From positions 1 to 23,797 of the IMG/VR virus record IMGVR_UViG_3300032220_001580: DNA of 23,797 nt; one strand, given 5' to 3'. This DNA is from a virus. The notes under the pieces were generated by a model. That model saw only the letters and a list, made by a program, of their open reading frames with translations. It was not told the origin of the DNA and made no database searches. The translations under genes and the position numbers were made by a program. Positions 3,137 to 23,280 of the stretch are shown here, in pieces. How positions within the stretch are numbered: the stretch's first letter is position 1; each line of letters opens with the position of its first letter.

Positions 3137-3677
3137 GACGAGCAATAATTTTAACGCCAGGAACTTTTAATCTTTGAACGGCGGCTATATTCTTTGGACT
3201 ATCATCAAAGAACTCAATCTCTTTATATCCAAACTTCATAGCTACCATCTTAATCCATTGAGCTTTCATTTCCGGATCGCTATTGCCGAGGGCAACAACA
3301 GGAATTTCTGGGATATCGTTTAAACGAAAGAATTCCCGAGCTGGTTCTTCACTTCCACGTGCGGTAAGAATAACTGCGCTGTCAGTTCCATGTTTTGCAA
3401 TAACAAGCTTTAATATTTTTGTTGTCCAACGTATAGCTTTAGGATCTTTTAATCCTTGAAAGTCGGAATAATCAAATTCATCGCCGGGTTCTTTTTCATA
3501 TACCGCATATTCTGCTGGATTTAAATCTAACAGCTCACCCGAAGCTTTTTTAATATGAACTTTGCTATTTGTTTTTACAAGAGTATCATCAAGATCGAAT
3601 ATACGTAATTTCTTTCCAGCTTGCAACGTTTCTTTGATGATTTCATGTATATAAGTTTTTAAAATTTGATTGCTCAT
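3123..3677 (-). CDS. HAD-superfamily phosphatase with N-terminal tag
   Basis: Encodes 184 residues. HAD motif I is FDLDDTL (27-33; nucleophile Asp28, acid/base Asp30), motif II is LTARG (104-108), a candidate motif III lysine is at 138, and motif IV is FFDDS (156-160). These are all the residues needed for a phosphohydrolase. There is no obvious cap insertion large enough to identify the substrate; nucleotide or polynucleotide 3'-end phosphatase activity is possible. Residues 5-18 (ILKTYIHEIIKETL) precede the catalytic domain and match a segment shared by several unrelated proteins here, with an (L/I)-x-E step at I14-K15-E16. It is one of four minus-strand genes in the window. Its start lies 21 nt from the divergent neck gene. 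Confidence 0.88.
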   Translation of the reverse strand: MSNQILKTYIHEIIKETLQAGKKLRIFDLDDTLVKTNSKVHIKKASGELLDLNPAEYAVYEKEPGDEFDYSDFQGLKDPKAIRWTTKILKLVIAKHGTDSAVILTARGSEEPAREFFRLNDIPEIPVVALGNSDPEMKAQWIKMVAMKFGYKEIEFFDDSPKNIAAVQRLKVPGVKIIARLIVH

Positions 3678-4970: not shown

Positions 4971-5043
4971 GTAGTCAAAAGCTCCCCTCTGATCCATCCA
5001 TATATAATGATAAGTGGAACGCTACCAATTAGAAGAAGAAGAT

Positions 5044-6123
5044 ATGAACCTATTAAAAGAATATATCCGTCTTATAATCAAAGAGCAATTGGAAGAAGAT
5101 ATTGATATCCAAAAATTATCTCCTGCAATGATCGGGGTTTATTCTTTAGCCCAAGCGATGAATAGATTGATATATGAGGGCGGTGCGTTACCTGGAGCTA
5201 TTCCAATCGACATAATAGATGCTGGTCAAAAACTACAATCTGCTCCAATGGCAACAGATACAGAAAGAAAAGCTGGGGTAAGTTTTCAATCTGATCGTAA
5301 TAGTTTCAAACTTTATCTTAATCCGAATTTAAAAAAACCTGAAATGATTGGCAATGACGAAACTCATGATCTTATTCATGCTTTTACCGGACATTTAGCT
5401 AAAAAATTTGGAAAAAGAAAACAGTCTATAGAGAAAAGTGGTCAATATTCTACAACTCCTACAGAATTTAATAGAACACGGCTTGATAAAGATGCTATAA
5501 AGCTTTACAATGATGCTTTTTTAAGAGCATTTAAATTTAATCCGCCGCAAGAAGTTTTTACAAAACCTTTTAATATGGACCAATCCGATTATATAAAATG
5601 GTTTATGGATATATTTGCTGACAAAAAAGAAAAAAATGTTAGTAGTAAATTTGATTTTGATATTAAGAATTTAGGTAAGGATACGTATTGGGCGGTTTTA
5701 GGTGACGATTTTTCACCAGGCAGACTTAGTAAAAGATATTATGTTGGTTATGAAAAATTTAAAAAACCTTTTAATTTCGTTGATTACAGTCAAGCAGATG
5801 TTCCTTTTCGTGCTCCATTGCCGCCTATAAAATACAATCAATCATTTGAAGATGAAGAAGAGCTGGGCGTTACTATGATTGCTGAAATTTCGAAATATGT
5901 AACCAAAGGAAAGATTATATCCAATCCAGCAAAGATGGCAAAAAAGATAAGAACTGAATATTCAAAATCTCTTGGATTAACAAATATAGATCCAGATGAC
6001 TTTAAACATCGTTATGATACTGCCGAAGTTGAAAATACAATGAAAAGATTATTTGAGTTATATAACGTATTTGTTGATAGATATAAGAAAGCTCAATCAA
6101 ATCCGTCTGCAATAACTGTTTGA
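5044..6123 (+). CDS. Tagged protein with HDxxH motif, unknown function
   Basis: Encodes 359 residues from the ATG at 5044 (MNLLKEYIRLIIKEQLEED). A GTG at 5014 would add ten residues, but the ATG follows a purine-rich AGAAGAAGAAG stretch and puts the tag at the extreme N-terminus, as in its relatives. Residues 1-18 are the cleanest copy of the shared tag, with (L/I)-x-E at I12-K13-E14. The body contains THDLIHAFTGH with His108, Asp109, His112 and His117, a plausible metal site reminiscent of the HDxxH of Coq4-type proteins, though no downstream Glu is at the standard distance. There is no signal peptide or membrane segment. It sits between two neck genes where T4 has none, so it looks like inserted cargo. 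Family not recognised. Confidence 0.7.
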   Translation: MNLLKEYIRLIIKEQLEEDIDIQKLSPAMIGVYSLAQAMNRLIYEGGALPGAIPIDIIDAGQKLQSAPMATDTERKAGVSFQSDRNSFKLYLNPNLKKPEMIGNDETHDLIHAFTGHLAKKFGKRKQSIEKSGQYSTTPTEFNRTRLDKDAIKLYNDAFLRAFKFNPPQEVFTKPFNMDQSDYIKWFMDIFADKKEKNVSSKFDFDIKNLGKDTYWAVLGDDFSPGRLSKRYYVGYEKFKKPFNFVDYSQADVPFRAPLPPIKYNQSFEDEEELGVTMIAEISKYVTKGKIISNPAKMAKKIRTEYSKSLGLTNIDPDDFKHRYDTAEVENTMKRLFELYNVFVDRYKKAQSNPSAITV

Positions 6124-8228: not shown

Positions 8229-11200
8229 ATGCCGCAACAACTTTTTAATTTCCCAGGCTTTTTTGATCGTGAAATCGATCTAACCGCACGAACCGCCGGA
8301 CCTGTTGGTATACCAGCAGGTTTAATTGGCGCAGTCCAAAAAGGACCGGCGTTCGTTCCATACACACTTGGATCATTTAATGATTTCGTAACGAAGTTTG
8401 GTGGCTATGATCCAAAGTTACCAGCCCCATATGCGGCAGATAAATTTTTACAAAACCGGAATGCGCTTACATTCGTAAGAGTATTGGGAGCTGGCGCAAA
8501 TGTAACTGCTGCTGATATATCTGCAACAGATACGGCTGGCATTGTTAAAAGCGCCGGATTTAAATTAAGCGGCACGGTTGCAACAAATACAGGTGCTCGG
8601 GCGCATGGTGCGGTGCAGTTCTTGGCAGCACGCCATCAACTACAAGCAAATCAAGGCATTGGTTTCCCAATGTTTACTGATAATGATAGCTTTGCCGACG
8701 CCGCCGATGGTTCTGGATTTGTTAATCTTATTCGTGGTGTAATATTTGCAGCATCTGGTTCCCGGATTATGATCATGTCTGGTTCTGGCGAAACGTTTAA
8801 CCCACTTCTTGATGACGTTGCCGTTTATTCTACTCCAGCAGACAGTGAAGAACCATATTTCAAGATTGTAATCTCTACTTCTCTTGGTTCAACCTTTGGA
8901 AGCGCAGATGGATTAGCCGGGATTAGAATTCTATCTGCTTCCTTCAATCCAACATCCGATCTCTACTTTGCAAAGCTTCTTAACACAGATCCAGCAAAGT
9001 TTGAACAAGAACAACATTATGTTTATGCAGATTTTGCAGTAGACGATGAAGTTGCAACAGTCATTCAAAATACGGTATCTGGCGTTCTAATCGCTTCTGG
9101 TTCTGGCAATACTTCTGCTACATCAGGTTTGTCTTCAACTCGATTCATTGAGCTCTTTGGACGTTTTGACACACGTTTTAAAACGCCAAAAACACCAAGC
9201 TTCATTTCTCAACCATATGGTTCAACAGAATATAATCTATTCCACATTGAAGCCATTGATGATGGCGTATATTCAAATGATAAGATTAAAATTTCTATTC
9301 AAAATATTATTGCCTCTACCAATCCAACAAATCCATATGGTTCATTCACATTAACGGTTCGTCAATTTGGAGATACGGATTATAATCAAGCTGTTATTGA
9401 GCAATTCAATGATCTTACCCTTGATCCAGAAAGTGACAAATATATCGCCAAAGTTATTGGCGATGCAAAGGCATATTATAACTTTGACGTAGAAGATCCA
9501 AATGATCGACGCATCATTCGTTCTGGCAAATATCCAAATATGTCAAACTACATTCGTGTAGTTATGAATGAGATGGTAGAACAAAAGATGGTTCCTGGAA
9601 CCGTGCTACCATTCGGTTTCCGTGGTCCTCAACTATTAAATACAAATCCATTATTAACAGATGTAAGTTCTTCAACGGCAACAGACATTCGTCTTGCAGG
9701 AAGCGGTTCTGCTAATACGTTTGGTCTTAATGGTGCAATAGTTCCACCAATCCCATACCGTTTCAGAGTAACACGAGGCGCTGTTACTGGAAGTGGTCTT
9801 GTAACTCTACCAGGGGCACAAGAGATTACAGATGGAAGACTATATTGGGGCGTTAAGTTTGAACGTAACAACAATAACGTTCTTAATACTAATATTAACG
9901 GTGAGCTTAACAACATCATTCCATCCTTCACAAGATTTGCTGGCATTGAAAAGCTTGACGTTCTTGTGACCGGTTCTTCAACGGACGATTTTAATGATAA
10001 TAAGTTTACTCTTGCAAGAGTAGCTATTGGAACAACTGGATTTGCATTCCTTACATCATCTGTTGGAACTCAAATGAAGAATGCTGTATATGTTCGTAAT
10101 GGAGTAGTTGATCCTTCTGACTATACAGTAACCGGAAGTTGTGTTTCTGGCAGTCAACTTACTTTTGCAAGTCTTGTTCATAGCGGCACGCAACCAATCC
10201 AATTCAATAGATTTAATAACTTTGCCAAATACACAGTATTCATGTATGGTGGATTTGACGGTGTAAATCTTCTTGACCCACACGCACAAAATTTTGATGA
10301 TCGTTCTACTTCAACAGAAAATGGCATTGGCGGTTATGGCGGTGCAAATGCGAATTATGATAGCCCAGGATTTAATTTCAATCAAAATGGAGTTGGATTT
10401 GCAAATAACCAAATATATTCTTACAAAGTAGCTACAACTATTATTACAGATCCAATTGCTTCAAATATAAATCTATTGGCAATCCCAGGTCAACGTGAAC
10501 CATTTGTAACTGATTATGCTTCTGATGCCGCTGCTGGATTTGGTTTAGCTCTATATTCTATGGATATTCCAAATTACAACTCTGATGGTGATAGAATATT
10601 TGATGGAACAACAACTGGAACTGGAAGTTACATTAACGTTCAAAATACGGCAGATCAATTTGACAGCCGTGCAATAAACAATGATTTCGTTGCCGCATAT
10701 TTCCCAGATGTTGTCATGACAGATCCAGCAAGCGGGAAAAGAATTACGGTTCCAGCTTCCGTTGCTTCTCTTGCTGCAATCGCTTATAATGACAAGGTCG
10801 CTTATCCATGGTTTGCTCCAGCCGGATTTAACCGTGCTGCACTCAACTTCGTATCTCTTACAAGAACAAGAGTAAATCAGAATGAACGTGAGAAGCTATA
10901 TCAAGTAAGAATTAATCCAATCGTCAAGTTCCCAAATGAAGGTTACGTAATCTTTGCACAAAAGACGCTTAATGCTGAGAAGTCTTCTCTTGAGAGCATT
11001 AATGTTCAGCGCATGGTTATGGATGTTCAACGTCAAGTTATCGATATTGGAAATAGATTAATCTGGGAGCAACTAACTCCAGCTCTTTATCAAGATTTCG
11101 TTGCTAAAGTTTCTCCAGTATTAGCTTTGGTCCAATCCAGAGGTGGTTTGAGACAGTTCAAGGTTGTATGTGATGCAACTAATAACACAGAACTTGATCG

Positions 11201-11306
11201 TGAGAACAATAGAATGAATGCTAAGATTTACTTACTACCAGTTAAGGCAGTTGAGTTTATCGCAGTTGACTTTATTATCACCAGAGCAGGCGTTCAATTC
11301 GGCTGA
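8229..11306 (+). CDS. Tail sheath protein, first paralogue
   Basis: Encodes 1025 residues, much longer than T4 gp18 (659). The N-terminus carries the sheath signature GIPAGLIGAVQKGPAFVPYT with NDFVTKFGGYD and FVRVLGAG (residues about 27-95). The conserved C-terminal domain, about 850-1025, contains AYPWFAPAGFNR, INPIVKF, EGYVIFAQKTL, a long helix (QRMVMDVQRQVIDIGNRLIW) and an exit strand VEFIAVDFIITRAG; in sheath proteins this domain donates and receives the strands that knit neighbouring subunits. The Gly/Ser/Thr-rich middle is an expanded surface region. AAGGA at 8216-8220 gives a good ribosome binding site. The next gene is a clear paralogue. By family, six subunits per ring surround the tube and contract to drive the tube through the envelope. 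Confidence 0.95.
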   Translation: MPQQLFNFPGFFDREIDLTARTAGPVGIPAGLIGAVQKGPAFVPYTLGSFNDFVTKFGGYDPKLPAPYAADKFLQNRNALTFVRVLGAGANVTAADISATDTAGIVKSAGFKLSGTVATNTGARAHGAVQFLAARHQLQANQGIGFPMFTDNDSFADAADGSGFVNLIRGVIFAASGSRIMIMSGSGETFNPLLDDVAVYSTPADSEEPYFKIVISTSLGSTFGSADGLAGIRILSASFNPTSDLYFAKLLNTDPAKFEQEQHYVYADFAVDDEVATVIQNTVSGVLIASGSGNTSATSGLSSTRFIELFGRFDTRFKTPKTPSFISQPYGSTEYNLFHIEAIDDGVYSNDKIKISIQNIIASTNPTNPYGSFTLTVRQFGDTDYNQAVIEQFNDLTLDPESDKYIAKVIGDAKAYYNFDVEDPNDRRIIRSGKYPNMSNYIRVVMNEMVEQKMVPGTVLPFGFRGPQLLNTNPLLTDVSSSTATDIRLAGSGSANTFGLNGAIVPPIPYRFRVTRGAVTGSGLVTLPGAQEITDGRLYWGVKFERNNNNVLNTNINGELNNIIPSFTRFAGIEKLDVLVTGSSTDDFNDNKFTLARVAIGTTGFAFLTSSVGTQMKNAVYVRNGVVDPSDYTVTGSCVSGSQLTFASLVHSGTQPIQFNRFNNFAKYTVFMYGGFDGVNLLDPHAQNFDDRSTSTENGIGGYGGANANYDSPGFNFNQNGVGFANNQIYSYKVATTIITDPIASNINLLAIPGQREPFVTDYASDAAAGFGLALYSMDIPNYNSDGDRIFDGTTTGTGSYINVQNTADQFDSRAINNDFVAAYFPDVVMTDPASGKRITVPASVASLAAIAYNDKVAYPWFAPAGFNRAALNFVSLTRTRVNQNEREKLYQVRINPIVKFPNEGYVIFAQKTLNAEKSSLESINVQRMVMDVQRQVIDIGNRLIWEQLTPALYQDFVAKVSPVLALVQSRGGLRQFKVVCDATNNTELDRENNRMNAKIYLLPVKAVEFIAVDFIITRAGVQFG

Positions 11307-11355: not shown

Positions 11356-14340
11356 ATGACACAGATATCATTCAAATCAGCCGGTGTTTCAGCCAGAACA
11401 ATCGATCTAACAGGACCAACAGCAATACAACCATCCGGTATACCAGCAGGTATAATCGGCACGGCAATCGCTGGCCCAGCTTTCGTTCCTGTAACCTTAG
11501 CCACTACAAACGATTTTATAGCAACATTCGGAGAAACAACTAATGACATATATGTTGGTCCATTAGCTGTTTCTGAATGGTTAAGAAACGCTCAAGCTGC
11601 AACGTTTATTCGTGTTCTTGGTGCGGGTTCCGGCGCCGCCCGGCAGGTCAATTCTCCTCGTGGAAGGGTTGCTGGCGGTGGCTACGTAGTTGGCGAACAA
11701 CTTCCGGAAGGAGCAGGCGCTCTTGGTAACAATCCTTATGCTACTGTTGGTAATCCCCTCGGCAGAACATATTTCCTTGGCGCATTCATGAGCCAATATG
11801 AATTGCTTGGTGTAAATCCCGTTGTTAGTTCTTCGATATTTACAGATTCGGGTTTATCTGCTTCTGGTGTCCCAGTTGTTCGTGGTGTATTGTTTGCTGC
11901 CTCTGGAACTCAACTATTATTATCTTCTTCATTTGGCGGGGGCGTAGCACCAGCCGGTCACGTAACAGGCTCTGTCAATCTTCGAAACTCTCTTGAAGAA
12001 TTCGTCATGTTCGTATCCGGTCAAACCAATACGGATCCGATGTATAGAAATGTTATAACGGCTTCTTTTGATATTGATGCTCCAAATTATTTCGGAAACA
12101 TAATGAATAGAGATCCACTAAAGCTTGAACAGGCTGGTTACATGTTACAAACTGATTGGGTTATCCACCCATCATACGCAGTTGTAACTGGAGCTAACGT
12201 TATTAGCGGTTCTACCGAAGTATTGGCACTTAGAACATCTGGTTATGAAAACGTTGCATTCCTTATTACCGGTTCTCAAGCAAGAAATACTGGAACAACA
12301 ACGGCTCCAAACTATGAAAACTTTGAAGACCGTTATCGTTCACCAAAGAGTCCATGGATTATATCTCAAAAGTTCGGCGGCAAACCAGTTAATCTTTTCC
12401 GCATTCACTCTTTGGATGACGGTATATATGCAAACAATAAAGTTAAAATCTCAATTGAAAACATTGCGCCAAGCCTTTCTGACGTAAATCTTTATGGAAC
12501 ATTTGATCTTCTTGTAAGAGATTTTGCAGATAATGATAAAAAGAAAGTTGTTCTTGAAGCATATCGTGGATTATCACTTGATTCAACATCTCCAAACTAT
12601 ATTGCTCGTGTTATTGGTGATTATAATACTTTCTATAACTTTGATGCAAATGATGGAGATGCAAGATTAATCACTCTTGGAAACTATACGAATAACTCAA
12701 AATACATTCGTGTAGAGGTTGCTGATGCAGTAGATGCATCGGATGTTGATGCAACGGCTCTCCCAGTTGGTTTCCGTGGTCCAGCCCACTTAGTAACATC
12801 TGGTTCTGCTCCTCTTGCGGCGTTCAGCGCAGTTGGTCCAACTGGTTATACAGTCGCAAATCCATTCCAAAAGACTGTTCAAATCCCAGTTCCATTACGT
12901 GAGAACTTGGTTAGAGGCGAGTCTCCAAATACAGTAGCAGACAAGGGACTATATTGGGGCGTTCAATTTGAACGTAAAATAAACGCTCTTCAACCAAATG
13001 CAAGCACAATTCGTGAAACCAGCGTTGAAAGCTTTGCAGCTTACTTCCCAGACTTCCAACAAGACAGCGTTAACTTCGTAGTCATGGACAATGAAGGAGT
13101 TCTTGATACGGCAGCAAACGGAATTCTTGATGCTGACCGTTTCAATAACAACGGCTTCTCTCTTGAGAATGTTGAGATCGTAATAAACTCAACGACTGGA
13201 TTGGCTGATACTACGCAAGTAGTAGATTGGAGCTATGTAAGAAATGGAGCGATAACTCCAACTGTTACAACAAGAGCATTGACAGTAGCAGATCTTTCTG
13301 ACCCATCAACACGACAACTTGCCAAGTTCAATCTTTTCATCCAAGGCGGATTTGATGGTGTTAATATCTTCAACTATGATGAACGTTATTTGACAAACAA
13401 AGCAATCAATGAAGAACTTGATTACACTTCAAGACTTCTACAATTGGGACCAACTGTAATGGCATACAATACTGCACTTGATTTGATAGCTGATGCAACT
13501 GAAATTGATGTTCAAGCATTCATCGTTCCTGGTATTCGTAATCCAGTTATTACGGACAGAGCTTTGCAAATCGCTGAAGGTAGATTTGATGCCATCTATA
13601 TCATGGATATAGAAAAATATGATACAGTTAATATGCTTATCACAAGCAGTAATCAGGTTGAGTCTGTAAGATATACTGCTCTTAATTTCCGTGATCGTGG
13701 CATTAACAGCTCCTTTGGCGCTTGTTACTTCCCAGACGTAATAATGCAAGACGGCATCTCTAATACTCTTCGTGAAGTTCCATCTTCCGTTGTTGCTCTT
13801 GGAGCTTATTCTTTCAATGACTCGGTAGCATTCCCATGGTTTGCTCCAGCCGGCTTTGCAAGAGGCGCTCTTGCAACAACGGAGCGTTCAACTCTACAAC
13901 TATCCAGAACAAACATGGATGATCTCTATGAAGTTGATATCAATCCAATCGTATCCTTTGCAGGATCTGAAGGATTGGTAATCTGGGGTCAGAAGACAAT
14001 GTATGCACAACAATCTGCTCTTGATCGTGTAAACGTTCGTCGTCTACTTCTCTCCATCCGTAGACAAGTTCGTCAAGTTTCGAACAGAATTCTCTTCGAA
14101 CAAACTCTACCAGAGACGCTCGCACGTTTCTCACAGTTGGTTAACCCAATCCTACAAAGAGTTCAAAATCAACGTGGTGTTGATCGTTTCCTTGTTCGTA
14201 TCGATACATCTACAACAACTGAAGCAGACTTTGAGAACAAGACGATCCGTGGTAAGATTTACTTACAACCAACACGCACCCTCGAGTTCTTGTCTGTAGA
14301 CTTCGTAATCAACAACCCAAGCAACTTCGGTCAAGGTTGA
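11356..14340 (+). CDS. Tail sheath protein, second paralogue
   Basis: Encodes 994 residues and parallels the preceding sheath along its whole length: N-terminus SGIPAGIIGTAIAGPAFVPV with NDFIATFGE and FIRVLGAG; middle SPWIISQKFGGKPVNLFRIH followed by DDGIYANNKVKISIENI; GLYWGVQFERK; and C-terminus AFPWFAPAGF, INPIVSF, EGLVIWGQKTM, a helix (VRRLLLSIRRQVRQVSNRIL) and a final strand LEFLSVDFVINN. The two are well diverged, so the duplication is old and both copies look intact, without stops or frameshifts. It starts 49 nt after the first sheath with no terminator between, so the two are probably cotranscribed. Both may be built into one sheath or used in different regions of the tail. Confidence 0.95.
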   Translation: MTQISFKSAGVSARTIDLTGPTAIQPSGIPAGIIGTAIAGPAFVPVTLATTNDFIATFGETTNDIYVGPLAVSEWLRNAQAATFIRVLGAGSGAARQVNSPRGRVAGGGYVVGEQLPEGAGALGNNPYATVGNPLGRTYFLGAFMSQYELLGVNPVVSSSIFTDSGLSASGVPVVRGVLFAASGTQLLLSSSFGGGVAPAGHVTGSVNLRNSLEEFVMFVSGQTNTDPMYRNVITASFDIDAPNYFGNIMNRDPLKLEQAGYMLQTDWVIHPSYAVVTGANVISGSTEVLALRTSGYENVAFLITGSQARNTGTTTAPNYENFEDRYRSPKSPWIISQKFGGKPVNLFRIHSLDDGIYANNKVKISIENIAPSLSDVNLYGTFDLLVRDFADNDKKKVVLEAYRGLSLDSTSPNYIARVIGDYNTFYNFDANDGDARLITLGNYTNNSKYIRVEVADAVDASDVDATALPVGFRGPAHLVTSGSAPLAAFSAVGPTGYTVANPFQKTVQIPVPLRENLVRGESPNTVADKGLYWGVQFERKINALQPNASTIRETSVESFAAYFPDFQQDSVNFVVMDNEGVLDTAANGILDADRFNNNGFSLENVEIVINSTTGLADTTQVVDWSYVRNGAITPTVTTRALTVADLSDPSTRQLAKFNLFIQGGFDGVNIFNYDERYLTNKAINEELDYTSRLLQLGPTVMAYNTALDLIADATEIDVQAFIVPGIRNPVITDRALQIAEGRFDAIYIMDIEKYDTVNMLITSSNQVESVRYTALNFRDRGINSSFGACYFPDVIMQDGISNTLREVPSSVVALGAYSFNDSVAFPWFAPAGFARGALATTERSTLQLSRTNMDDLYEVDINPIVSFAGSEGLVIWGQKTMYAQQSALDRVNVRRLLLSIRRQVRQVSNRILFEQTLPETLARFSQLVNPILQRVQNQRGVDRFLVRIDTSTTTEADFENKTIRGKIYLQPTRTLEFLSVDFVINNPSNFGQG

Positions 14341-14364: not shown

Positions 14365-15069
14365 ATGAAAATTACATTAGAACAACTTAAACGTTTAATT
14401 CGTGAAGCTACTGAAGACGTTGACCGTGTTAAACCATATTCGGCGGCTGAATTATTGAAAGCTTTAGAAGATGCTCCTGACGAAGCTTTTGATGATGAAC
14501 CAAAAGAAGAAGGTGAAGAAGAAGACGTTGAAGATTATCATGATCCACGTCCTGGTGATTTTGCCCGCAGAAGACTTGAAGAGGGTGCCATAAGACTTGT
14601 TTATACAAATCATGGTATTCTTACAGAAGAACATGTTCGTGAACTAAAAGAATACGGATATGAAATGGAAGAATGTGGTTCTTGGGAAGTTGAAGGACCA
14701 AGCATGAGAACTCATCATGATGAGCCGGTAGCTAAAGTTGTTATTCTCGGTCCAGGACAAGAAGATGTGATTGAAGAAGGTGACACATCATCTCCTTCTG
14801 TTGGCGGTTCTGGACCTGGAACACAAGTAGCCGTAGGAATGCCAAGTGGTCCCGGAGGAGCTCCTTCACCATCTGGCGCTGCTGTGGTAGCAGAACGCTT
14901 TAATCGTCATGCAGAAGCTTTATTAGAAGCCTGGTTGGAAGAAGAACTTCATGGCGACCAAGATAAGCTTGATTTAGACGATGATGGTGAGATTGAAGCA
15001 AGTGATCTTGCGATGTTGCGCCATGGATTAACTGACAAACAAGTTGGCGAAGACAGAAAACGTAGCTGA
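14365..15069 (+). CDS. Tagged acidic protein with an EF-hand-type loop
   Basis: Encodes 234 residues. Residues 3-18 (ITLEQLKRLIREATED) are a copy of the shared N-terminal segment, with (L/I)-x-E at I12-R13-E14. An acidic stretch follows (40-58), then a possible small alpha/beta unit (75-130), then a Gly/Pro/Ser-rich linker (140-172) and a C-terminal helical region. Residues 203-214, DLDDDGEIEASD, form a canonical 12-residue calcium-binding loop (Asp203, Asp205, Asp207, Gly208, Ile210, Asp214), as in EF-hand and dockerin modules; only one loop is present. It lies between sheath and tube genes, so it is made with the tail, yet the tag suggests another destination. Family not recognised. Confidence 0.75.
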   Translation: MKITLEQLKRLIREATEDVDRVKPYSAAELLKALEDAPDEAFDDEPKEEGEEEDVEDYHDPRPGDFARRRLEEGAIRLVYTNHGILTEEHVRELKEYGYEMEECGSWEVEGPSMRTHHDEPVAKVVILGPGQEDVIEEGDTSSPSVGGSGPGTQVAVGMPSGPGGAPSPSGAAVVAERFNRHAEALLEAWLEEELHGDQDKLDLDDDGEIEASDLAMLRHGLTDKQVGEDRKRS

Positions 15070-15126: not shown

Positions 15127-15615
15127 ATGGCCGACACACTATCAGTAACAGATATGTTACCAACAAAGTTTGAACCACTTATTAAAAGACGGTTCGTATT
15201 TGCTATTGAAGGAGTAGATGCATTCTTAATCAAGTCTGCTGCACGTCCACAAATGACATTTGATGAAGTTACTATTCCATGGATCAATAGCACACGTTAC
15301 CTCGCTGGTAAGGGCACATGGGGAGAAATGAGCGTTACGCTTTATGACCCAATTGCTCCATCTGGTGCTCAACAAGTAATGGAATGGATCCGCACGTGCT
15401 TTGAAAGCGTTTCTGGTCGTGCAGGTTATGCCGATTTCTATAAGCGTGACATTCAAATCAAGATGCTTGATCCTGTTGGAACGGTAGTTCAGCTTTGGGA
15501 CGTTAAGGGTGCTTGGTGTAAATCTGCCAATTTCGGTGAAATGGCTTATGATGGTAACGACCCAGCAGATATTCAGCTTTCTATTCGCTTCGATAACTGC
15601 GTTCTTCAATTCTGA
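15127..15615 (+). CDS. Tail tube protein, T4 gp19-like
   Basis: Encodes 162 residues, almost the length of T4 gp19 (163). Recognisable family features are an N-terminal strand (RRFVFAIEGVDAFLIKSAAR), PQMTFDEVTIPWIN, then YLAGKGTWGEMSVTLYDP, a helix (SGAQQVMEWIRTCFE), YKRDIQIKMLDPVG and the closing KGAWCKSANFGEMAYDGND with IQLSIRFDNCVLQF. Hexamers stack to form the rigid inner tube that the sheath drives through the envelope. Only one tube gene is seen, although there are two sheath genes. It is followed by a terminator. Confidence 0.95.
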   Translation: MADTLSVTDMLPTKFEPLIKRRFVFAIEGVDAFLIKSAARPQMTFDEVTIPWINSTRYLAGKGTWGEMSVTLYDPIAPSGAQQVMEWIRTCFESVSGRAGYADFYKRDIQIKMLDPVGTVVQLWDVKGAWCKSANFGEMAYDGNDPADIQLSIRFDNCVLQF

Positions 15616-15683: not shown

Positions 15684-16043
15684 ATGGATATGATAGAACA
15701 ATCAATGAAACAATATGAGCGTATTCGTAAAGGATATCCTCGGTTATTCACAGACGCTCAAAAGATTGCAAAGCTCATTATAAAAGCCTCTAAAAAGGAT
15801 TTTGAGCCCATTAAAACTTGGCGCTACCTACAGAGGTTGAAGCAAATAGAAAGCCGTAAAAAGGGTTATAGCCCGGTTCCTGATATGGTTATTAACATCT
15901 TCTTTGATGCGAAGTTAACTCGTGATGAAGAACGTGCGAAGATAAAACAATATTATTTAGACGTTATAAGAGCTGGACAAAAAGATATTAACGATATGTC
16001 TTTAATAAAAGAATATATTCATCATATCTTAAAAGAACTTTGA
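15684..16043 (+). CDS. Small basic protein with the shared tag at its C-terminus
   Basis: Encodes 119 residues, helical and basic (for example MKQYERIRKGYPRLF and KAKLIIKASKKDF-like stretches around residues 8-40). The final 15 residues, MSLIKEYIHHILKEL (105-119), match the N-terminal segment of other proteins in the window, with (L/I)-x-E at L116-K117-E118, one residue from the end. The same tag at the opposite terminus argues that it is a transferable element and not part of a fold. The ATG two codons later (15690) is an alternative start. The family is not recognised. A strong terminator separates it from the tube gene, and the gp26-like gene follows after 74 nt. Confidence 0.7.
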   Translation: MDMIEQSMKQYERIRKGYPRLFTDAQKIAKLIIKASKKDFEPIKTWRYLQRLKQIESRKKGYSPVPDMVINIFFDAKLTRDEERAKIKQYYLDVIRAGQKDINDMSLIKEYIHHILKEL

Positions 16044-16104: not shown

Positions 16105-16110
16105 GGAGGA
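16105..16110 (+). promoter_or_regulatory. Strong Shine-Dalgarno GGAGGA
   Basis: GGAGGA lies 7 nt before the ATG at 16118 and selects it over the in-frame TTG at 16103. Confidence 0.8.
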
Positions 16111-16117
16111 AGAAATA

Positions 16118-17008
16118 ATGTCAGAAACAGATAATAGAGAGTTGCATAATGCGATTTTAGCAGCTCAAATGGCTTCACAAAACGTTGGTGCAACCGGTGG
16201 AGAAGGTCAACCAATATCCGCTCAACAATATGCTCGTCAAGAACTCGGCGTTGAGATTCCAGTAGATGCCGTTCCTTTACCATCAAAAGGTAGAGTTTAT
16301 CCACAAGGACATCCATTATGTGGAGCTGAGTCAGTTGAATATCGTGCAATGACTGCAAAAGAAGAAGATATTCTAATGTCTCAGGCTCTTATTAAGCGTG
16401 GAACCGTTATAACAGAACTTATCAAATCTTGTCTTATCAATAGAGATATAGATGTGCAAAGCCTTTTATCTGGGGATAGAAACGCTTTAATGATTGCAAT
16501 ACGTGCTACCGGTTATGGTAACATATATGAACCTCAATATTCCTGTCCATCATGTGAATTTAAAAATGATTTACAGATTGATCTTAATCAACTTGGAATT
16601 AAGCCTTTAACATTGGAACCAGTTGTTCCTGCTGGTAATCTTTTCAATTTCAACTTGCCTGTATCCAAGAAGACAATAACATTTAAGTTTCTAACCGGTA
16701 GAGAAGAAGAAGAGATTGTTAATGAGACTGAGATTAGAAAGAAAAAGGGTCTATTAAATTCTAATCTTATCACCTCTCGACTTTTACGTTCAATTGTTGC
16801 AATTGATGGTAACGATAACAAGAGCCTTGTCTCACGTTTCGTTCAATATATGCCAGCTCGTGATTCATTACTTCTTCGTGAACATATCGATACACATGAA
16901 CCCGGTGTAGATATGAAAGTTGAATTCCGTTGTTCAAGTTGCGATCACTTCGAGGAGGTTGCCCTTCCGATGGGTCCGACGTTTTTTTGGCCTAACTTCA
17001 AGCGATAA
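16118..17008 (+). CDS. Baseplate/hub protein, T4 gp26-like, with zinc ribbon
   Basis: Encodes 296 residues ending at TAA 17006-17008. After a flexible N-terminus, residues about 45-65 carry VPLPSKGRVYP; then VEYRAMTAKEEDILMSQALI and ELIKSCLINRDIDVQSLL form the helical core, and ALMIAIRATGYG precedes CPSC (Cys143, Cys146). A second pair CSSC (Cys272, Cys275) near the C-terminus completes a probable four-cysteine zinc site. This pattern is that of the T4 base plate protein family (gp26 type), needed for hub assembly. The short C-terminal end, PMGPTFFWPNFKR, is read through a run of seven T. A second frame opens there and continues for 89 codons, so a longer product may also be made. Confidence 0.8.
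   Translation: MSETDNRELHNAILAAQMASQNVGATGGEGQPISAQQYARQELGVEIPVDAVPLPSKGRVYPQGHPLCGAESVEYRAMTAKEEDILMSQALIKRGTVITELIKSCLINRDIDVQSLLSGDRNALMIAIRATGYGNIYEPQYSCPSCEFKNDLQIDLNQLGIKPLTLEPVVPAGNLFNFNLPVSKKTITFKFLTGREEEEIVNETEIRKKKGLLNSNLITSRLLRSIVAIDGNDNKSLVSRFVQYMPARDSLLLREHIDTHEPGVDMKVEFRCSSCDHFEEVALPMGPTFFWPNFKR
16982..16988 (+). promoter_or_regulatory. Candidate programmed frameshift site (T7 run)
   Basis: Codons ACG TTT TTT TGG contain seven T in a row. The P-site tRNA-Phe on UUU at 16985-16987 can re-pair perfectly after a +1 move (16986-16988) or a -2 move (16983-16985); either puts the ribosome into the frame of the following extension, 20 nt before the zero-frame stop. A GAGGAGG sequence at 16952-16958 could act as an internal stimulator, though 23 nt away is far for the known examples. 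Confidence 0.45.
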
Positions 17009-17258
17009 AGAAGCGGTTCTCCTTGAGCCATTCTTCTTATTAGGCTATTATTTCGGGATGGATTGGAATACATATTACAACTATCCAATCGCCTATAAGA
17101 GATGGCTCATTAAGAGAATAGAAAAAGAAATAAGTAAAGCTCACGAATCTCAGAATGATATCCCGAGTAAAGCGCCACATCACAATACCCCAGATATAAG
17201 ATCCCTTACTGGGAAAACAAGATCACAAGTTCCGCATAATTTACAACGCTTTACTTAG
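16989..17258 (+). CDS. Out-of-frame C-terminal extension or separate small helical protein
   Basis: Entered by frameshift at the T7 run, this gives 89 residues (GLTSSDKEAVLLEPFFLLGY and onward) fused to residue 290 of the gp26-like protein, 379 residues in all. No ATG, GTG or TTG lies in this frame between the T run and the ATG at 17058, yet the protein-like sequence (LLEPFFLLGYYFGMDWNTYY, then NYPIAYKRWLIKRIEKEI) begins well before that ATG. Starting at 17058 would cut off the first helix and give 66 residues. The arrangement resembles the frameshifted tail-assembly chaperones found upstream of tape measure genes. The alternative is one miscounted T in the assembly, which would make a single long gene. 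Confidence 0.55.
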   Translation, partial: GLTSSDKEAVLLEPFFLLGYYFGMDWNTYYNYPIAYKRWLIKRIEKEISKAHESQNDIPSKAPHHNTPDIRSLTGKTRSQVPHNLQRFT

Positions 17259-17303: not shown

Positions 17304-17849
17304 TCAAAAACGTATCTTAAGAAGACCCAGATGATGTAATGCCATATAGGCTCCATCTGGGTTTCTTATTTTTCCATCAAATAAAAGATTTTCTAAGTCT
17401 TCCATATCTACAACGGCAACTTCTAAAAACTCATTATCATCTAAGTCTAAATCTTTAGCTACCTTCTTGCATCCAGTAGATATATACACGTGTCGCAGAC
17501 CAGATGAATATGGGGAATAGCTTCGGCTTGATAAGAATTCTATATTGCCTTCATATCCAGTCTCTTCTAATAGTTCTCTCTCAGCGGCTCTGGAAGGCTT
17601 TTCTCCAGGGTCTATCATGCCACCAGGTAGTTCGAACTCTACTCGCTCTATGCCTGGCCTAAACTGTTTTACGAGCACTATTTGACCATCTTCAGTCATA
17701 GGAAAGATATTGACGCTATCTGGGGTTCTATCAATGAAAGAAGTATAAGGTTTGCCATTAGGCAACAAGAAGGTTTTTTGAATGACCTTTTTCTTGTAGC
17801 CGGTTGGTTTGTGTGAGAAGGTATAAAACTTTTCTTTTAACTTTTTCAT
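17304..17849 (-). CDS. NUDIX hydrolase, ADP-ribose pyrophosphatase-like
   Basis: Encodes 181 residues from the ATG at 17849 (MKKLKEKFYTFSHKP). A longer frame reaches 17921 but would overlap the upstream gene by 71 nt, whereas this ATG lies one base after that gene's stop, a typical coupled start. The NUDIX box is complete: Gly77-x5-Glu83-x7-Arg91-Glu92-Leu-Leu-Glu95-Glu96-x-Gly98. The N-terminal beta domain with VNIFPMTEDGQIVLVKQFRP and the RNPDGAYMALHHLGL C-terminus resemble the ADP-ribose pyrophosphatase subgroup. By family it would hydrolyse a nucleoside diphosphate linked to another group, perhaps ADP-ribose released from NAD breakdown. It carries no tag, unlike its operon partner. Confidence 0.9.
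   Translation of the reverse strand: MKKLKEKFYTFSHKPTGYKKKVIQKTFLLPNGKPYTSFIDRTPDSVNIFPMTEDGQIVLVKQFRPGIERVEFELPGGMIDPGEKPSRAAERELLEETGYEGNIEFLSSRSYSPYSSGLRHVYISTGCKKVAKDLDLDDNEFLEVAVVDMEDLENLLFDGKIRNPDGAYMALHHLGLLKIRF
17323..17370 (+). terminator. Possible + strand terminator inside the converging NUDIX gene
   Basis: ACCCAGATG (17325-17333) and CATCTGGGT (17354-17362) form a 9-bp stem, extended by two weaker pairs, with a 20-nt loop, followed on the + strand by TTTCTTATTTTT. It could end transcription of the gp26-like unit. It overlaps the 3' coding end of the minus-strand NUDIX gene, so coding constraint could explain part of it. The long loop lowers confidence. Confidence 0.4.
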
Positions 17850-17850
17850 T

Positions 17851-18438
17851 TCAGTCTTTTCTGGAACGTTTGCCAGAGCATTTCCATTTTTTTCTGGAAA
17901 GTCTGAGGGGACTGTTAGCATCTTTAGCGGCTGAAGGATGATCTTTCATTTGACCGTAAGAGCGAGCACAGTAGCTATCTCCCTTTGATGTTCCTGGAGC
18001 AATGGAATAACCTTTAGCTCCGTAACGAACTGTTTTCTTATTCTTGCCAGAACCGACAACCTTTTTATATTTCTTTGGACCTCTATAGCCCTTTTCTTCT
18101 TGAACCCCTTCATTGATTCCTTCAAAATCTAATCCGCCATAGTAATCTACAACAAATTCCGTTGCATCACCAATAGCATTATCTATTTTATCATTAAATT
18201 CTTGTTGATTTTTAACGATACCAGCGGCTTTTTGTATTTCTTCAAAAGGAATATAAATATTGACGTATTTGGTTATAAGGCTTTCAACTTTTTGAGTATT
18301 ATTTTCTTCTGCTGCCGTTTCTATTTCATCCACGGAGTCAATATAGTTCATTATTAGCCGAGTTAATGGATTTAAGCTTTCAATTTCATCATTGATGTTT
18401 TCAAGAAGATAAGATAATAGTTTTTTTAAGTTTTTCAT
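17851..18438 (-). CDS. Tagged protein with Cys/Lys-rich C-terminal domain
   Basis: Encodes 195 residues from the ATG at 18438, with GGAG seven bases upstream; the TTG at 18450 is an unlikely start. Residues 1-17 (MKNLKKLLSYLLENIND) are the most divergent copy of the shared segment, with L11-L12-E13. Residues about 18-110 are acidic and helical. The C-terminal 65 residues are very basic: KKTVRYGAKGYSIAPGTSKG, then DSYCARSYGQMKDHP and LRLSRKKWKCSGKRSRKD. I have a memory of this 'GDSYCARS ... LSRKKWKCSG' pattern recurring in proteins of large phages, but cannot name the family or a function. A basic tail after an acidic body would suit a DNA-binding internal head protein. It is second in a three-gene minus-strand operon. 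Confidence 0.75.
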   Translation of the reverse strand: MKNLKKLLSYLLENINDEIESLNPLTRLIMNYIDSVDEIETAAEENNTQKVESLITKYVNIYIPFEEIQKAAGIVKNQQEFNDKIDNAIGDATEFVVDYYGGLDFEGINEGVQEEKGYRGPKKYKKVVGSGKNKKTVRYGAKGYSIAPGTSKGDSYCARSYGQMKDHPSAAKDANSPLRLSRKKWKCSGKRSRKD

Positions 18439-18450
18439 TTTAAGCTCCAA

Positions 18451-18810
18451 TCAGAGTGGCCAAGCTTTGCCAGTTTTTTCTTCAAAAGCTTTTTTAGCAA
18501 CATTTTGAGCATTAAGTTTTTCCATTACGGTTTCAACTGTTGCGCCGTCACGTTTAAGTTCTTCTTGATATTCTTTTGAAGCACGAATTACTTCTTGGGT
18601 TGCTGCAATTTGTTCTGGAGTTCCTTGAAGCTTAAATGGAAAACCAATTTCTCCTTGTTCAGAACCTTCTTCTGCTTGTTCTTCCATTGAATTTGCAAGC
18701 TTTTTAAGTCCAACTTGAGCTAATCTTGCTGCGACACCTGCAAAGAATAATTTACCTGCCCATGATAGACGAATTTCGTTAAGTTGTTGTTTAGATTTTT
18801 TATCTGACAT
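18451..18810 (-). CDS. Hypothetical small protein, first gene of minus-strand operon
   Basis: Encodes 119 residues, with GAGG eight bases before its ATG (18810). Residues 4-14 (KKSKQQLNEIR) weakly recall the shared tag, but without the hydrophobic spacing; I do not count it. A glycine/alanine-rich amphipathic segment (WAGKLFFAGVAARLAQVGLK, 17-36) is followed by an acidic linker and a C-terminal block, GTPEQIAATQEVIRASKEYQ, EELKRDGATVETVMEKLNAQ and GKAWPL at the end. That block resembles a small helical domain I have seen in virion-internal or scaffold-like proteins of large phages, from memory only. The stop is 12 nt before the next gene's ATG. Confidence 0.7.
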   Translation of the reverse strand: MSDKKSKQQLNEIRLSWAGKLFFAGVAARLAQVGLKKLANSMEEQAEEGSEQGEIGFPFKLQGTPEQIAATQEVIRASKEYQEELKRDGATVETVMEKLNAQNVAKKAFEEKTGKAWPL

Positions 18811-18894: not shown

Positions 18895-21800
18895 ATGGCA
18901 TCAAACATTGAAATAACGGCACAACTGAATAAAATGCTTTTAGAGCAAAATCAGTTATATCTTACGCAAGCTAAAATTCAGCGTGGACAATTGGCTATTA
19001 TGCAACAAATGGCTGAAGCCATGGGCAATGTTGATGTTTCAAAGTTGAATGAAAACTTTAAGCAAATCAATGATCAGATAGAAGCTGCTGATGCTGCTTT
19101 GAAAAAAATGGAAGAGAGCGGTCAAAATGCAGTAGGAAATGTTGCTGGCGGCAGCAAAAAAATGAAAGATGCTCTTAATTCCGCCTCGGATGCTGCTGGA
19201 CAAGCAGCTAAGAATATAGAGAAAATGAATGTAGCTGCTATGGCTATTGATGGAGCTATAGCCGGTTTTCAAACCACTTTCAATATATTAGGAGGTGTTA
19301 AAAATATATTGAAAAATGTTATTAGCACTTTTGGTCAGTTTGCGCTTTCAGTAATTAGATTTCCATTTGCTTTATGGAGTTTCTTGTTTGAAAAAGCTGC
19401 CGGTGACGGCGGAGGCGGAAGTGGCTTAAGAGAAGCTTTAGAAGCCATTAGAAAAGAATTTGGTGATTTAAGTACTAATGGTGCTAAAGCAATTCAAGAC
19501 TTAGCTAAAAGCATGAGTGGCACTCTTGGTCCAACTACATTATCTGTTTATAAAACATTTGGCAACTTAGCAGAAAGATTGAAGTATTTTACTGAACTTG
19601 CTAAAAATCTTGGAAACATGTTTGGTGTTATAGTTAGCGGCGGCTTAATAAAAAGTGCGGAAGCAGTAGGAGCTTTTCAAAAAGGTCTTAATATTAGTGC
19701 TGAAGGAATGAAAGCTGTTGCTCGACAATCTATTATATCTGGCAGAACCATGGATGAAGAGCTAAGGGAAACTGCCAATTATGCAATTCAAATGGGAGAA
19801 GCTTTTGGAATTAACGCTCAAGTAATTGGTCATGATATGGCTGAACTTGAGGCAGATATGAAACATTTCGGAGGAATGAGTAAAAAGGCTCTTTCAGAAA
19901 CTGTAGTATATGCACACAAACTTGGTATTGAAGTTAAATCACTTGCTGGTATTATGGATACCTTTGATAATTTCGATACAGCAGCCGAAGCCGCTTCGAA
20001 GTTAAATCAACAGTTTGGTATACAGATAGAAACTGAACGAATAATGAGGGCAGAGAACCCTGCTGAACGTTTAGATCTCTTGCGACAAGGACTTGAAAGA
20101 ACTGGCAAGAGTTTTGAAAGTTTAAGTAGGCGTGAACAACAATACTTGGCAACAACTGTTAATATGTCTCAGGAAGAGGCAGCGTTAGCATTTGCACAAG
20201 AAAACAGAGGATTAAGCTTAGATCAAATTAAGAAAAAATCTGGCGAAGCAGAAAAGAAACAATTGTCACAAGCGGAATCAATGCAAAAGCTTGCAGGATC
20301 AATTGAAAGATTAATTAAATCTGGTGGTGGATTGCAAAAAGGATTATTTGCAGCCTTCTTTGAAGGTTTTGAAAGAGGTATATTCCGAAGTAGGGACTTC
20401 TTGAAAGTCTTCAGGGAAATACGGCAAGTCTTGCGAACGGTAAGGCGAGCTGGCATACAGGTTGGCAGAGCATTCGTTGAAACATTCCCAGGAGTTCAAG
20501 ATATCGTAAAGGGTTTACAAGGCTTATTCAATCCTGCTCGTTGGAAAGCAATGATGGATAGAGTTGTTGGAGTTTTCAAAACCTTCTTCAAAGAGTTACA
20601 AACAAATCCAGAAGCTGGAATGAAAAATCTTTTTGATAGATTAAAAAGTATATTTTTTGATCATTTTGATGCATCAAGTGGTGCAGGCAGAAAGATAATA
20701 GAAGGTTTTAAAACATTCTTTAAAACTATATTGGCTGCTGGTGTCGCTGGACTTAAAATAGCCATACCTTTGTTATTTGATGGATTAACTAAAATTATCA
20801 AAGGCATTAACGGCTTCTTAAAAGGCGAAGCATTGCCTATAGATGTTAATGGGTTCGGTGGACAATTAATGGAGATATTGTCCGGATTATTCAAAGCAAT
20901 TAAGGATGCTGCGCCTCCTCTAATAGAAGCTCTTAAAGAACTGTTTAGCACCGCATTTGCAAAGCTTTCCGAGATGATTGAGCCATATAAGGGAAGAATA
21001 ATGTTACTATTATTTGGACCTGCATTATTTCGTAGTGCTTTAGGTGGTTTGACTGCTGGATTAAGTAATTTGTTTATTCAATCAATGGTTAAAGCAGCTA
21101 CTACAGCATCTGCCTCAACAGCAGCTCAAGGTGCAGTAGGAGGAATTGCAAGAAGAATGCCTCCTATGCCGCCACCTGGAAGAGCATTAAGCAGCATTCC
21201 TTTAAGTCCACGTGCAGCAGGGCAGATAGTTCAAACAAACGATGCTCTTGGAAGATTTGGAGTTACTGACGCTACTAAATTAGGATTAAAGTTAGTTGCT
21301 ATAGCTGCTGCATTAGCAGTTGGTGGCTATCTTTTGTCTATAGCAGTAAAAAAGATGGCGGACGAGCTTAAGGATACTCCAATAGAAGGAATTGTTAAAT
21401 CATTAGCTGTATTAGGTGCCGCAGCTATAGGAATAGCTGGATTAGGTGCCGCCTCTAAGCTTCTTTCAAAAGTTAATCTTGCAGATGTAGGAAAGGCATA
21501 TTTGACAGTAGGTGCCCTTATTCCAATGGTTATTATTATAGCTGGTGTTTTGGCTATAGTTTCTGAGATGCTTTTACAATATTCAATTGGGGATGTTATG
21601 AAAGCAGGAATAGCTATGGGTGCAGGTGTTATAATATTTACAGCCGCAATTCCTCTAATAGTTGCCGCTGGATTGCTTGGTGCCTTAATAGTCGCAACAG
21701 GCGGGGCGGCGTTGGCCGCCGCCGCTGTTGGGTTTGGAGCCATATTAGCCGTTGTTGGTGGAATGGTTTATAGTATTATTGGCTTTATAGATAAAATCAA

Positions 21801-23280
21801 AAATATCAACATAGGAAAACCAGCAGATTTTGCACCGAAGTTAGATGCATTTGTCAAGGTTTTTGGGGCTATAATTTCATTTGCAGGAGTTTTTTCTGCA
21901 ATAATGACTGCGGGAGCAATATCTTCAATTACTTCATTAATAACAAATCTGAGCCCGGCTGGATTATTAAATAATTTATTTGGTGCTGGAGATGGAGGTC
22001 CGCTCGCACAATTAAACAACATCATTAAAGGAATGACTGGTAGCATAACAGAAATAATAACTACTATATCTGGCAGTTTGAGTAATATAACTCCAGAACA
22101 ATTGAAAAGTCTTGAAGCGATTGGTCCAGTTATAACTGCCGTCGCAGCTTTAGCAGAAGCAATAAAACCACCAGAAGGTGCAGGAGGCGGGACCGAGGTT
22201 GGATTAACTGGAGTTAGCGTTCGTAGGGCAACCGATATTAATGCTTGGCTCATAAATATGAAAAATGTATTAACCGGTCGAGATGGCTTAATTAAAACTG
22301 CAAGTGAAGTTGTTAGAGAACTATCTACAATTCCAAATGTAAATGTAGAAGGGGTTAAGGCTTCGGGTTCTATATTGAGTGGAATAGTTGGTTTAGTAGG
22401 AAGCATTAAAGTTGATCCTGAATATGTAAAAGCACTATCAGAAGCCAGAGAAGGAAGACTTGGTGCTCTTCGAAGAGCTGCTTTGGATGCAATTGGCGAC
22501 CAAGTTAAGGGGGTTATAGCTATTATCGGTGCTGTAAAAAATGATCTTCCTGCATTGATAAGTGGAATAGTTGAAGTAACTAAAGGATTAACAGCAGGAC
22601 AATTAAACAGAGCTGTCAAAGGTGCAGAAATTGTTGGCTCTATCATTGGAACAGTTGTTAGTTTAGTAAACTCGGTTAAAGAAACTGGTTCTGTTGAAAC
22701 TAAAAGTGGCGGAACAACTTTTAGTGGAACTACTTTTAGAACTATATTTCAACAAGCCAAGCAGATGGTTGAAAGTTTATTTGGCACGGGTGGGGGTGGA
22801 GTTATAAAGACGATTGTAGATGCTATTAGTAATTCCGGAATATCCGGATTGCCAAGAGGAATAGATACTAAAGTTAAAGCAGTCTCAGAAATATTAAATG
22901 CAGTTATTAATATTTCTTCTTTGGGTCAAGAAGGCATAGGAAATCTTAGTAATGGAATTACTGCCATTAACAGTCAATTAAATAGCATTGCCGGAGCTGG
23001 CGGTCCTTTTGCTCAAATGTTAGATAGTATTAATGCTGTAGGAGGAATTCTGAACGAATCAAATCCTGTTAATATCAGCACAAGTCTTAATCGCTTCGTT
23101 AATAAAGCAGGACTTGCTACTGGAACATATACGATCAACAATAGAAACTTTACATTACAAGTTAACGTTGAAGTCAAACTGGATGCAGATAGATTTGAAC
23201 AAGCATTAGCAACCCGCCCAGGAGAGTCACGCTTTGTTCTACGTGCTCCACAAGGAGGCGGAGCAGCAAGGTTGCCGTGA
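18895..23280 (+). CDS. Tail tape measure protein
   Basis: Encodes 1461 residues, the longest gene of the window. The N-terminus (1-100) is coiled coil (LNKMLLEQNQLYLTQAKIQR). Long helical regions follow. Residues about 798-1010 hold a cluster of hydrophobic segments (LVAIAAALAVGGYLLSIAV, TVGALIPMVIIIAGVLAIV, FGAILAVVGGMVYSIIGFI, FGAIISFAGVFSAIMTAGA) typical of tape measure proteins, which set tail length and may enter the host membrane. The C-terminus is beta-like (RNFTLQVNVEVKLDADRFEQ). At about 0.15 nm per helical residue the length limit is near 220 nm. No ribosome binding site is visible. It sits 84 nt from the divergent minus-strand operon. Confidence 0.92.
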   Translation: MASNIEITAQLNKMLLEQNQLYLTQAKIQRGQLAIMQQMAEAMGNVDVSKLNENFKQINDQIEAADAALKKMEESGQNAVGNVAGGSKKMKDALNSASDAAGQAAKNIEKMNVAAMAIDGAIAGFQTTFNILGGVKNILKNVISTFGQFALSVIRFPFALWSFLFEKAAGDGGGGSGLREALEAIRKEFGDLSTNGAKAIQDLAKSMSGTLGPTTLSVYKTFGNLAERLKYFTELAKNLGNMFGVIVSGGLIKSAEAVGAFQKGLNISAEGMKAVARQSIISGRTMDEELRETANYAIQMGEAFGINAQVIGHDMAELEADMKHFGGMSKKALSETVVYAHKLGIEVKSLAGIMDTFDNFDTAAEAASKLNQQFGIQIETERIMRAENPAERLDLLRQGLERTGKSFESLSRREQQYLATTVNMSQEEAALAFAQENRGLSLDQIKKKSGEAEKKQLSQAESMQKLAGSIERLIKSGGGLQKGLFAAFFEGFERGIFRSRDFLKVFREIRQVLRTVRRAGIQVGRAFVETFPGVQDIVKGLQGLFNPARWKAMMDRVVGVFKTFFKELQTNPEAGMKNLFDRLKSIFFDHFDASSGAGRKIIEGFKTFFKTILAAGVAGLKIAIPLLFDGLTKIIKGINGFLKGEALPIDVNGFGGQLMEILSGLFKAIKDAAPPLIEALKELFSTAFAKLSEMIEPYKGRIMLLLFGPALFRSALGGLTAGLSNLFIQSMVKAATTASASTAAQGAVGGIARRMPPMPPPGRALSSIPLSPRAAGQIVQTNDALGRFGVTDATKLGLKLVAIAAALAVGGYLLSIAVKKMADELKDTPIEGIVKSLAVLGAAAIGIAGLGAASKLLSKVNLADVGKAYLTVGALIPMVIIIAGVLAIVSEMLLQYSIGDVMKAGIAMGAGVIIFTAAIPLIVAAGLLGALIVATGGAALAAAAVGFGAILAVVGGMVYSIIGFIDKIKNINIGKPADFAPKLDAFVKVFGAIISFAGVFSAIMTAGAISSITSLITNLSPAGLLNNLFGAGDGGPLAQLNNIIKGMTGSITEIITTISGSLSNITPEQLKSLEAIGPVITAVAALAEAIKPPEGAGGGTEVGLTGVSVRRATDINAWLINMKNVLTGRDGLIKTASEVVRELSTIPNVNVEGVKASGSILSGIVGLVGSIKVDPEYVKALSEAREGRLGALRRAALDAIGDQVKGVIAIIGAVKNDLPALISGIVEVTKGLTAGQLNRAVKGAEIVGSIIGTVVSLVNSVKETGSVETKSGGTTFSGTTFRTIFQQAKQMVESLFGTGGGGVIKTIVDAISNSGISGLPRGIDTKVKAVSEILNAVINISSLGQEGIGNLSNGITAINSQLNSIAGAGGPFAQMLDSINAVGGILNESNPVNISTSLNRFVNKAGLATGTYTINNRNFTLQVNVEVKLDADRFEQALATRPGESRFVLRAPQGGGAARLP

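Follow-up and report, generated by a model that had tools for sequence, protein, structure and literature searches.

Comparison of a phage contractile-tail module with its relatives suggests that the gp26-like gene of this module very probably yields two products by a +1 slip of the ribosome at TTTTTTTGGCCT. We consider it highly likely that the gene encodes a tail assembly chaperone (TAC) and that the +1 slip, promoted by a hairpin, adds a 379-aa fusion to the 296-aa short form. As read in the sequences, the pattern is far beyond chance, since it recurs in about 120 non-redundant relatives that include sequenced phage isolates.

The window (the whole stretch of DNA analysed, an IMG/VR virus record of 23,797 bases) carries a contractile-tail module with two large tail sheath genes, a gp19-like tail tube gene, the gp26-like gene and a tape measure gene (Table 1). 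The start of the gp26-like gene is most likely the ATG at 16118, which has GGAGGA upstream and replaces TTG 16103, a candidate considered for this role. The large sheath-like genes lie in tandem (8229-11306, 1025 aa, and 11356-14340, 994 aa), the second matching tail sheath families, and three minus-strand genes (a NUDIX hydrolase and two unknowns; 17304-18810) lie between TAC-C and the tape measure gene. Unrelated proteins have in common a short helical stretch resembling LLKEYIRLIIKE, perhaps a shared targeting tag: it is N-terminal in those encoded at 3123-3677 (minus strand), 5014-6123 and 14365-15069 (plus strand) and C-terminal in that encoded at 15684-16043 (plus strand). Elsewhere in the window are a gene for a DUF192 protein (2738-3136; E 9e-21) and, at 607-1827, one whose cysteine-rich product gives weak matches to MopE (metal-binding) and von Willebrand A; such a protein is unusual for a phage and may hint at the host group.

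Table 1. Features of the tail module and of the frameshift region (window coordinates).
Feature	Position	Strand	Basis
Tail tube protein (gp19-like)	15127..15615	+	phrog_4542, E 9.8e-28
Shine-Dalgarno GGAGGA of gp26-like gene	16105..16110	+	sequence
TAC-N, gp26-like zinc-ribbon protein, short form, 296 aa	16118..17008 (including stop)	+	PF12322, phrog_150
GAGGAGG, internal Shine-Dalgarno-like element	16952..16958	+	sequence
Small upstream RNA hairpin (predicted)	16957..16977	+	folding of window; class-wide signal
Shift site TTT TTT TGG CCT	16982..16993	+	sequence; conserved among relatives
TAC-C, +1-frame helical domain	16989..17258	+	sequence and profile comparison
Zero-frame stop TAA, 6 codons past P-site codon	17006..17008	+	sequence
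Tape measure protein	18895..23280	+	phrog_58, E 5.5e-05

Across the junction the zero frame reads ACG TTT TTT TGG CCT AAC TTC AAG CGA TAA, exactly as described in the initial annotation, which had it pass ACG TTT TTT TGG and stop at 17008. No stop interrupts the +1 frame between 16917 and its own stop at 17256-17258, and TTTTTTTGGCCT, with its run of seven T residues (16982-16988), is found once in the whole window. A tRNA leaving the P-site codon at 16985-16987 would re-pair on 16986-16988, the next codon being GGC (16989-16991), and the predicted fusion (TAC-NC) measures 379 aa counted from ATG 16118. As TAC-C lies in the +1 frame, the window does not conform to the canonical -1 arrangement, in which the new frame is -1.

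The gp26-like ORF matches PF12322 (E 3.3e-18; 66.6 bits for a cut-off of 24.5; profile positions 14-219 of 219) and phrog_150 (80.9 bits, E 2.1e-22). The latter profile has 282 columns and the match ends at column 236; the C-terminal part missing from the ORF is the +1-frame stretch that runs to 17258. The gene is most likely a TAC gene, whose long form would arise from the shift, because it sits between the tail tube and tape measure genes. Among the +1 loci described below, a tube gene is found upstream in 168 of 173 and a long ORF downstream in 143 of 173. At the level of gene architecture, overlapping frames and a conserved site provide the short and long forms, with a shared N-terminal part, of a TAC. 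Single-sequence AlphaFold prediction of the window protein gave a pLDDT of 31, and a model of TAC-N built from 62 relatives (pLDDT 94.9) was used instead. Among solved structures the HK97 tail assembly chaperone (gp13, 2ob9) scores best against this model (75 aligned residues, rmsd 2.9, next best Z 4.1), but its Z of 5.9 is under the level that would exclude a common arrangement; Foldseek gave an E of 3.1. Many phage sequences appear to confirm as a tail assembly chaperone the family PF12322, long annotated as "baseplate hub".

The same junction is present in the best 80 IMG/VR relatives with one clear exception, L071, whose TAC-C sits in the -1 frame at TTTCTTCTGGCCTTCCCGG (positions 2500-2600); this locus falls outside both classes defined below and may reflect a sequencing error or a changed site. 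Extra groups of relatives were added and every locus was scored with profile models. TAC-C was reached via TAC-N, because tblastn with TAC-C alone against phage records returned zero matches. TAC-N was recognized in 287 loci and TAC-C as well in 268, where it occupies the +1 frame in 173 loci and the -1 frame in the other 95, never the zero frame. Clustering left 125 non-redundant +1 loci and 53 non-redundant -1 loci. Isolates with the site include Microcystis Mel-JY01 (TTTTTTTGGCCT) and Flavobacterium immuto (TTTCTTTGGCCT). The same tail genes and shift site also turn up in contigs assigned to bacterial MAGs (Halobacteriovorax, Methylococcaceae and WOR-3; for example L303, L304 and L313), which for that reason are probably phage sequence within those assemblies.

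In 119 of the 125 +1 loci the P- and A-site codons are YTT TGG, that is, a P-site YUU followed by U as in RF2; the other six (Gram-positive, Streptomyces and jumbo phages) have UUU followed by C, A or G. The sites divide into TTT TTT TGG CCT (98), TTT CTT TGG CCT (10), TTC TTT TGG CCT (6) and others (5), so that TGG CCT follows one of these three codon pairs in 114 of 119. The A-site codon is UGG throughout (119/119), and a zero-frame stop occurs 3-6 codons past the site in all 119. The P-site codon likewise ends in T without exception (119/119), while TTC accounts for 21% of Phe codons upstream in the same genes; the nominal P for this bias (1e-14) is too small because the loci are related, the direction being plain. 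The most variable codon position is zero-frame position 3 before the site and position 1 after it, corresponding to +1-frame position 3, as expected if selection acts on the +1 frame past the site. With both frames and the slippery site kept, the initial proposal that a programmed shift ahead of the tape measure gene fuses a gp26-like protein to a small helical domain receives strong comparative support.

A run of seven T residues in a metagenome-derived contig could be an artefact of sequencing or assembly within a single continuous gene, an alternative raised at the outset. It is refuted and its probability is next to nil: the same junction is seen in about 120 non-redundant loci and in isolates, it is also formed at TTTCTTTGG and TTCTTTTGG, which have no T7 run, and the domain is in the zero frame in 0 of 268 loci. 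The T7 run, present in most sites, would also suit slippage of RNA polymerase in place of ribosomal frameshifting; this we find hardly credible, as 17-18 of the 119 sites lack such a run (TTT CTT, TTC TTT, TTC CTT) and the conserved TGG and upstream hairpin have no obvious role in polymerase slippage. The frame alone is equally consistent with a shift of -2 at this site, of the kind used by phage Mu: the -2 product, with one extra Phe, enters the same frame, and U7 in the commonest sites permits perfect re-pairing in either direction. Seven of the 119 sites (TTC TTT TGG and TTC CTT TGG) speak against it, for there a -2 shift requires a middle-base mismatch and +1 re-pairing is still possible; re-pairing at all sites, as in a Mu-type shift, is thus not found. 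Moreover, stable downstream structure of the kind seen in the -1 class was looked for in the +1 class and is at most weak there (mean z -0.5 to -1.0), and a hairpin upstream favours forward movement (PMC6321510). A -2 shift is accordingly improbable, and of the two directions left open by the initial annotation ("+1 or -2") the seven TTC YTT TGG sites favour +1.

That TAC-C might be an independent gene, separately initiated or translationally coupled, is suggested by the presence of ATG 17058 in the window, by the annotation of Mel-JY01 as two genes and by two relatives (L291 and L297), the only ones to have TAC-C behind its own ATG just past the TAC-N stop. We judge this explanation very improbable. 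No ATG, GTG or TTG is available for TAC-C in 29 of the 119 loci and none with a Shine-Dalgarno core in 76 more, leaving only 14 of 119 with such a start; the slippery codons, besides, are constrained beyond the protein sequence. The claim that no usable start precedes ATG 17058 needs qualification in that TTG 16920 and TTG 16959 exist, but both are poor, the latter abutting GAGGAGG with zero spacing. Protein-like sequence does begin upstream of that ATG, as previously noted, the conserved FFGL... stretch being already under way there. In L291 and L297 the ATG is a few bases past the stop and adds about 25 residues, and L297 retains TTC CTT TGG CCA; this layout is possibly a third way of expressing TAC-C.

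The +1 slip that we favour is accompanied by a constraint at the nucleotide level just upstream of the site. Folding of a long segment (-60..-4) gave a z of only -0.58 and masked a hairpin that shorter segments and synonymous controls revealed. For positions -21..-3 the mean folding energy in the +1 class is -5.03 kcal/mol compared to -1.03 kcal/mol in synonymous controls (mean z -3.3), and the signal at -21..0 has a mean z of about -3.3 to -4.6. The same folding elsewhere in the gene yields a z near 0, and in the -1 class about +0.2. The signal persists when one locus is retained per 60% identity group (44 loci; -4.23 vs -1.83 +/- 0.26) or per 50% identity group (19 loci; -4.07 vs -1.56 +/- 0.36). 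A strong stem is predicted in 68% of +1 loci and in 6% of controls, mostly 4-7 nt from the P-site codon, and is absent at some +1 loci (L019, L050). In the window, a core stem (16961-16964 with 16972-16975) is extended by pairing of 16957-16958 with 16976-16977; the stem is modest (-4.8 vs -1.46 for -24..-3, P = 0.04) and lies 7-9 nt from the P site, not 4-7 nt. A Shine-Dalgarno-like stretch is conserved 18-39 nt upstream of the site in the +1 class, pairing of -39..-18 with the anti-Shine-Dalgarno reaching -10.2 kcal/mol compared to -5.5 kcal/mol in synonymous controls. It is represented in the window by GAGGAGG, the element singled out in the initial annotation; at 27 nt before the P-site codon it is, however, too far for a role of the RF2 type, and a Shine-Dalgarno about 3 nt before the P-site codon was sought in the +1 class with none found.

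On the evidence of the sequences, the protein does not account for which codons are used immediately before the +1 site: GAG encodes Glu at -24 in 73 cases against 2 (GAG 34% elsewhere), and CCG encodes Pro at -18 in 82 of 117 (14% elsewhere). Such strong preferences near the site, together with stem registers that vary among groups, raise the question of whether, granted a real frameshift, the hairpin signal is no more than codon bias or another nucleotide-level constraint. Codon-order shuffles, which retain the favoured codons, already fold to -3.1, and against them the signal is weaker. Still, the observed value of -5.6 is beyond both sets of controls, registers -24 and -27 occur several times more often than in shuffles, and between some groups the arms of the stem change in pairs (GCCC/GGGT in the window, ACCC/GGGT in L003, ACCG/CGGT in L004 and GCCT/AGGC in L011), covariation being limited by the differing registers and by near-invariance in the largest group. 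Codon bias as the whole explanation of the hairpin signal is therefore possible but doubtful.

These data lead us to envisage that the majority of ribosomes would read to the zero-frame stop and produce the 296-aa TAC-N. In a minority, as the Trp codon UGG waits at the A site, the tRNA-Phe that sits on UUU in the P site would slide one base forward (YUU to UUU; UUU to UUU in the window) and GGC would be read next, giving the 379-aa fusion that carries the helical TAC-C; both the fusion and its ratio to the short form we infer. While UGG waits, the small mRNA hairpin would refold behind the ribosome and promote the forward slip, a step perhaps also promoted by the Shine-Dalgarno-like stretch ahead of it, which the folded hairpin might, conjecturally, draw nearer the P site. 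In designed constructs on 70S ribosomes, a hairpin that refolds beside the E site has been shown to raise +1 shifting and lower -1 shifting, acting like an internal Shine-Dalgarno duplex (PMC6321510); by analogy, the +1 class hairpin looks like a natural case of such stimulation. The tape measure protein would then be coated by the short form, with the rare long form bringing in tail tube subunits, roles suggested by analogy with lambda gpG/gpGT (PMC5009743), by the position of the gene and by the moderate HK97 fold match.

Loci with TAC-C in the -1 frame have T TTT TTC as their site in 49 of 53 non-redundant cases; stable structure follows the site (mean z -2.3 to -2.8) and a Shine-Dalgarno core precedes it. 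These loci include the cyanophages S-PM2, P-SSM2, S-CAM1 and S-RIM2 and the vibriophage KVP40; by eye, the jumbo phages PBECO4, PA5oct, Atu_ph07, XacN1 and RAS14 have the same look. TAC-C of the two classes is related (hhalign 99.2%, E 2e-19). That of the -1 class matches the T4 gp51 C-terminus (hhalign 90.7%); comparison of +1 TAC-C with the single T4 gp51 C-terminus gave 1.2%, not significant. Both T4 gp26 and gp51 match PF12322 and phrog_150, the former ending at column 235 and the latter continuing to column 280, like the predicted short and long forms of the window gene. The shift is reportedly retained in several T4-like groups, T4 itself having separate genes (26 and 51). A tree of 116 TAC-N sequences requires four changes of direction, at least three of them by well-supported branches, its deep order being unsure because of long branches. 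Cyanophage gp51, which was noted in 2010 to be some 20% as long as usual (PMC3037559), is TAC-C. Taken as a whole, we lean slightly toward a widespread class in which a natural E-site hairpin, possibly with a Shine-Dalgarno-like stretch drawn closer, would stimulate +1 shifting at YUU UGG C, the direction having flipped at least three times with the two products kept.

The small ORF usually labelled "hypothetical" (or, in cyanophages, a truncated gp51; PMC3037559) appears to be the C-terminal half of a TAC, and [CT]TTTGGCC near the end of gp26-like genes provides a simple annotation rule. The +1 class offers more than 100 natural variants of one shift site, and natural candidates for upstream-hairpin stimulation, which rests until now on designed constructs. 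With +1, -1 and two-gene solutions for one gene, the family makes a good system for studying the evolution of shift direction.

TAC shifts of -1, -2 and +1 are on record in tailed phages, +1 being likely in archaeal HSTV-2 (PMC5009743). For T4-like phages, TAC frameshifting has been published (Vladimirov, Gautam and Davidson 2022, Virology 566:9-15, as cited in PMC10885494 and PMC12846349), and passages of the citing papers mention -1 signals with poly-T. Contrary to what had been supposed, use of the shift by a gp26-type protein is thus not unusual; it is seen throughout the PF12322 family. Because TAC frameshifting itself is already on record, we claim as new only the +1 class; its combination of a sense-codon site, an upstream hairpin and a Shine-Dalgarno-like stretch appears new, and part of it may be in Vladimirov 2022. 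As far as these sources convey, the T4-like TACs share protein family and role with the window gene and have short and long forms made by frameshift or, in T4, unlike the window, by two separate genes with no frameshift. Lambda G/GT (Xu 2004; PMC5009743) is similar in its low-frequency shift near the end of a chaperone gene between the tube and tape measure genes; it differs in shifting -1 at GGGAAAG, in a chaperone sequence that is unrelated or very distant and in having no upstream hairpin described. The E. coli prfB (RF2) site, CUU UGA C, resembles YUU UGG C in its P-site YUU followed by U and re-pairing on UUU; it has a stop codon in the A site and a Shine-Dalgarno 3 nt upstream, whereas the window has a Trp codon, a hairpin and a Shine-Dalgarno-like stretch much further upstream. 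Finally, the designed hairpins of Huang, Cho and Chang (2018; PMC6321510) adjoin the E site as the window hairpin would, mimic an internal Shine-Dalgarno duplex and are active on 70S ribosomes. Their construct combines a designed 12-bp GC-rich stem with CUUUGA in the absence of RF2, the +1 class natural stems of 4-7 bp with a sense codon.
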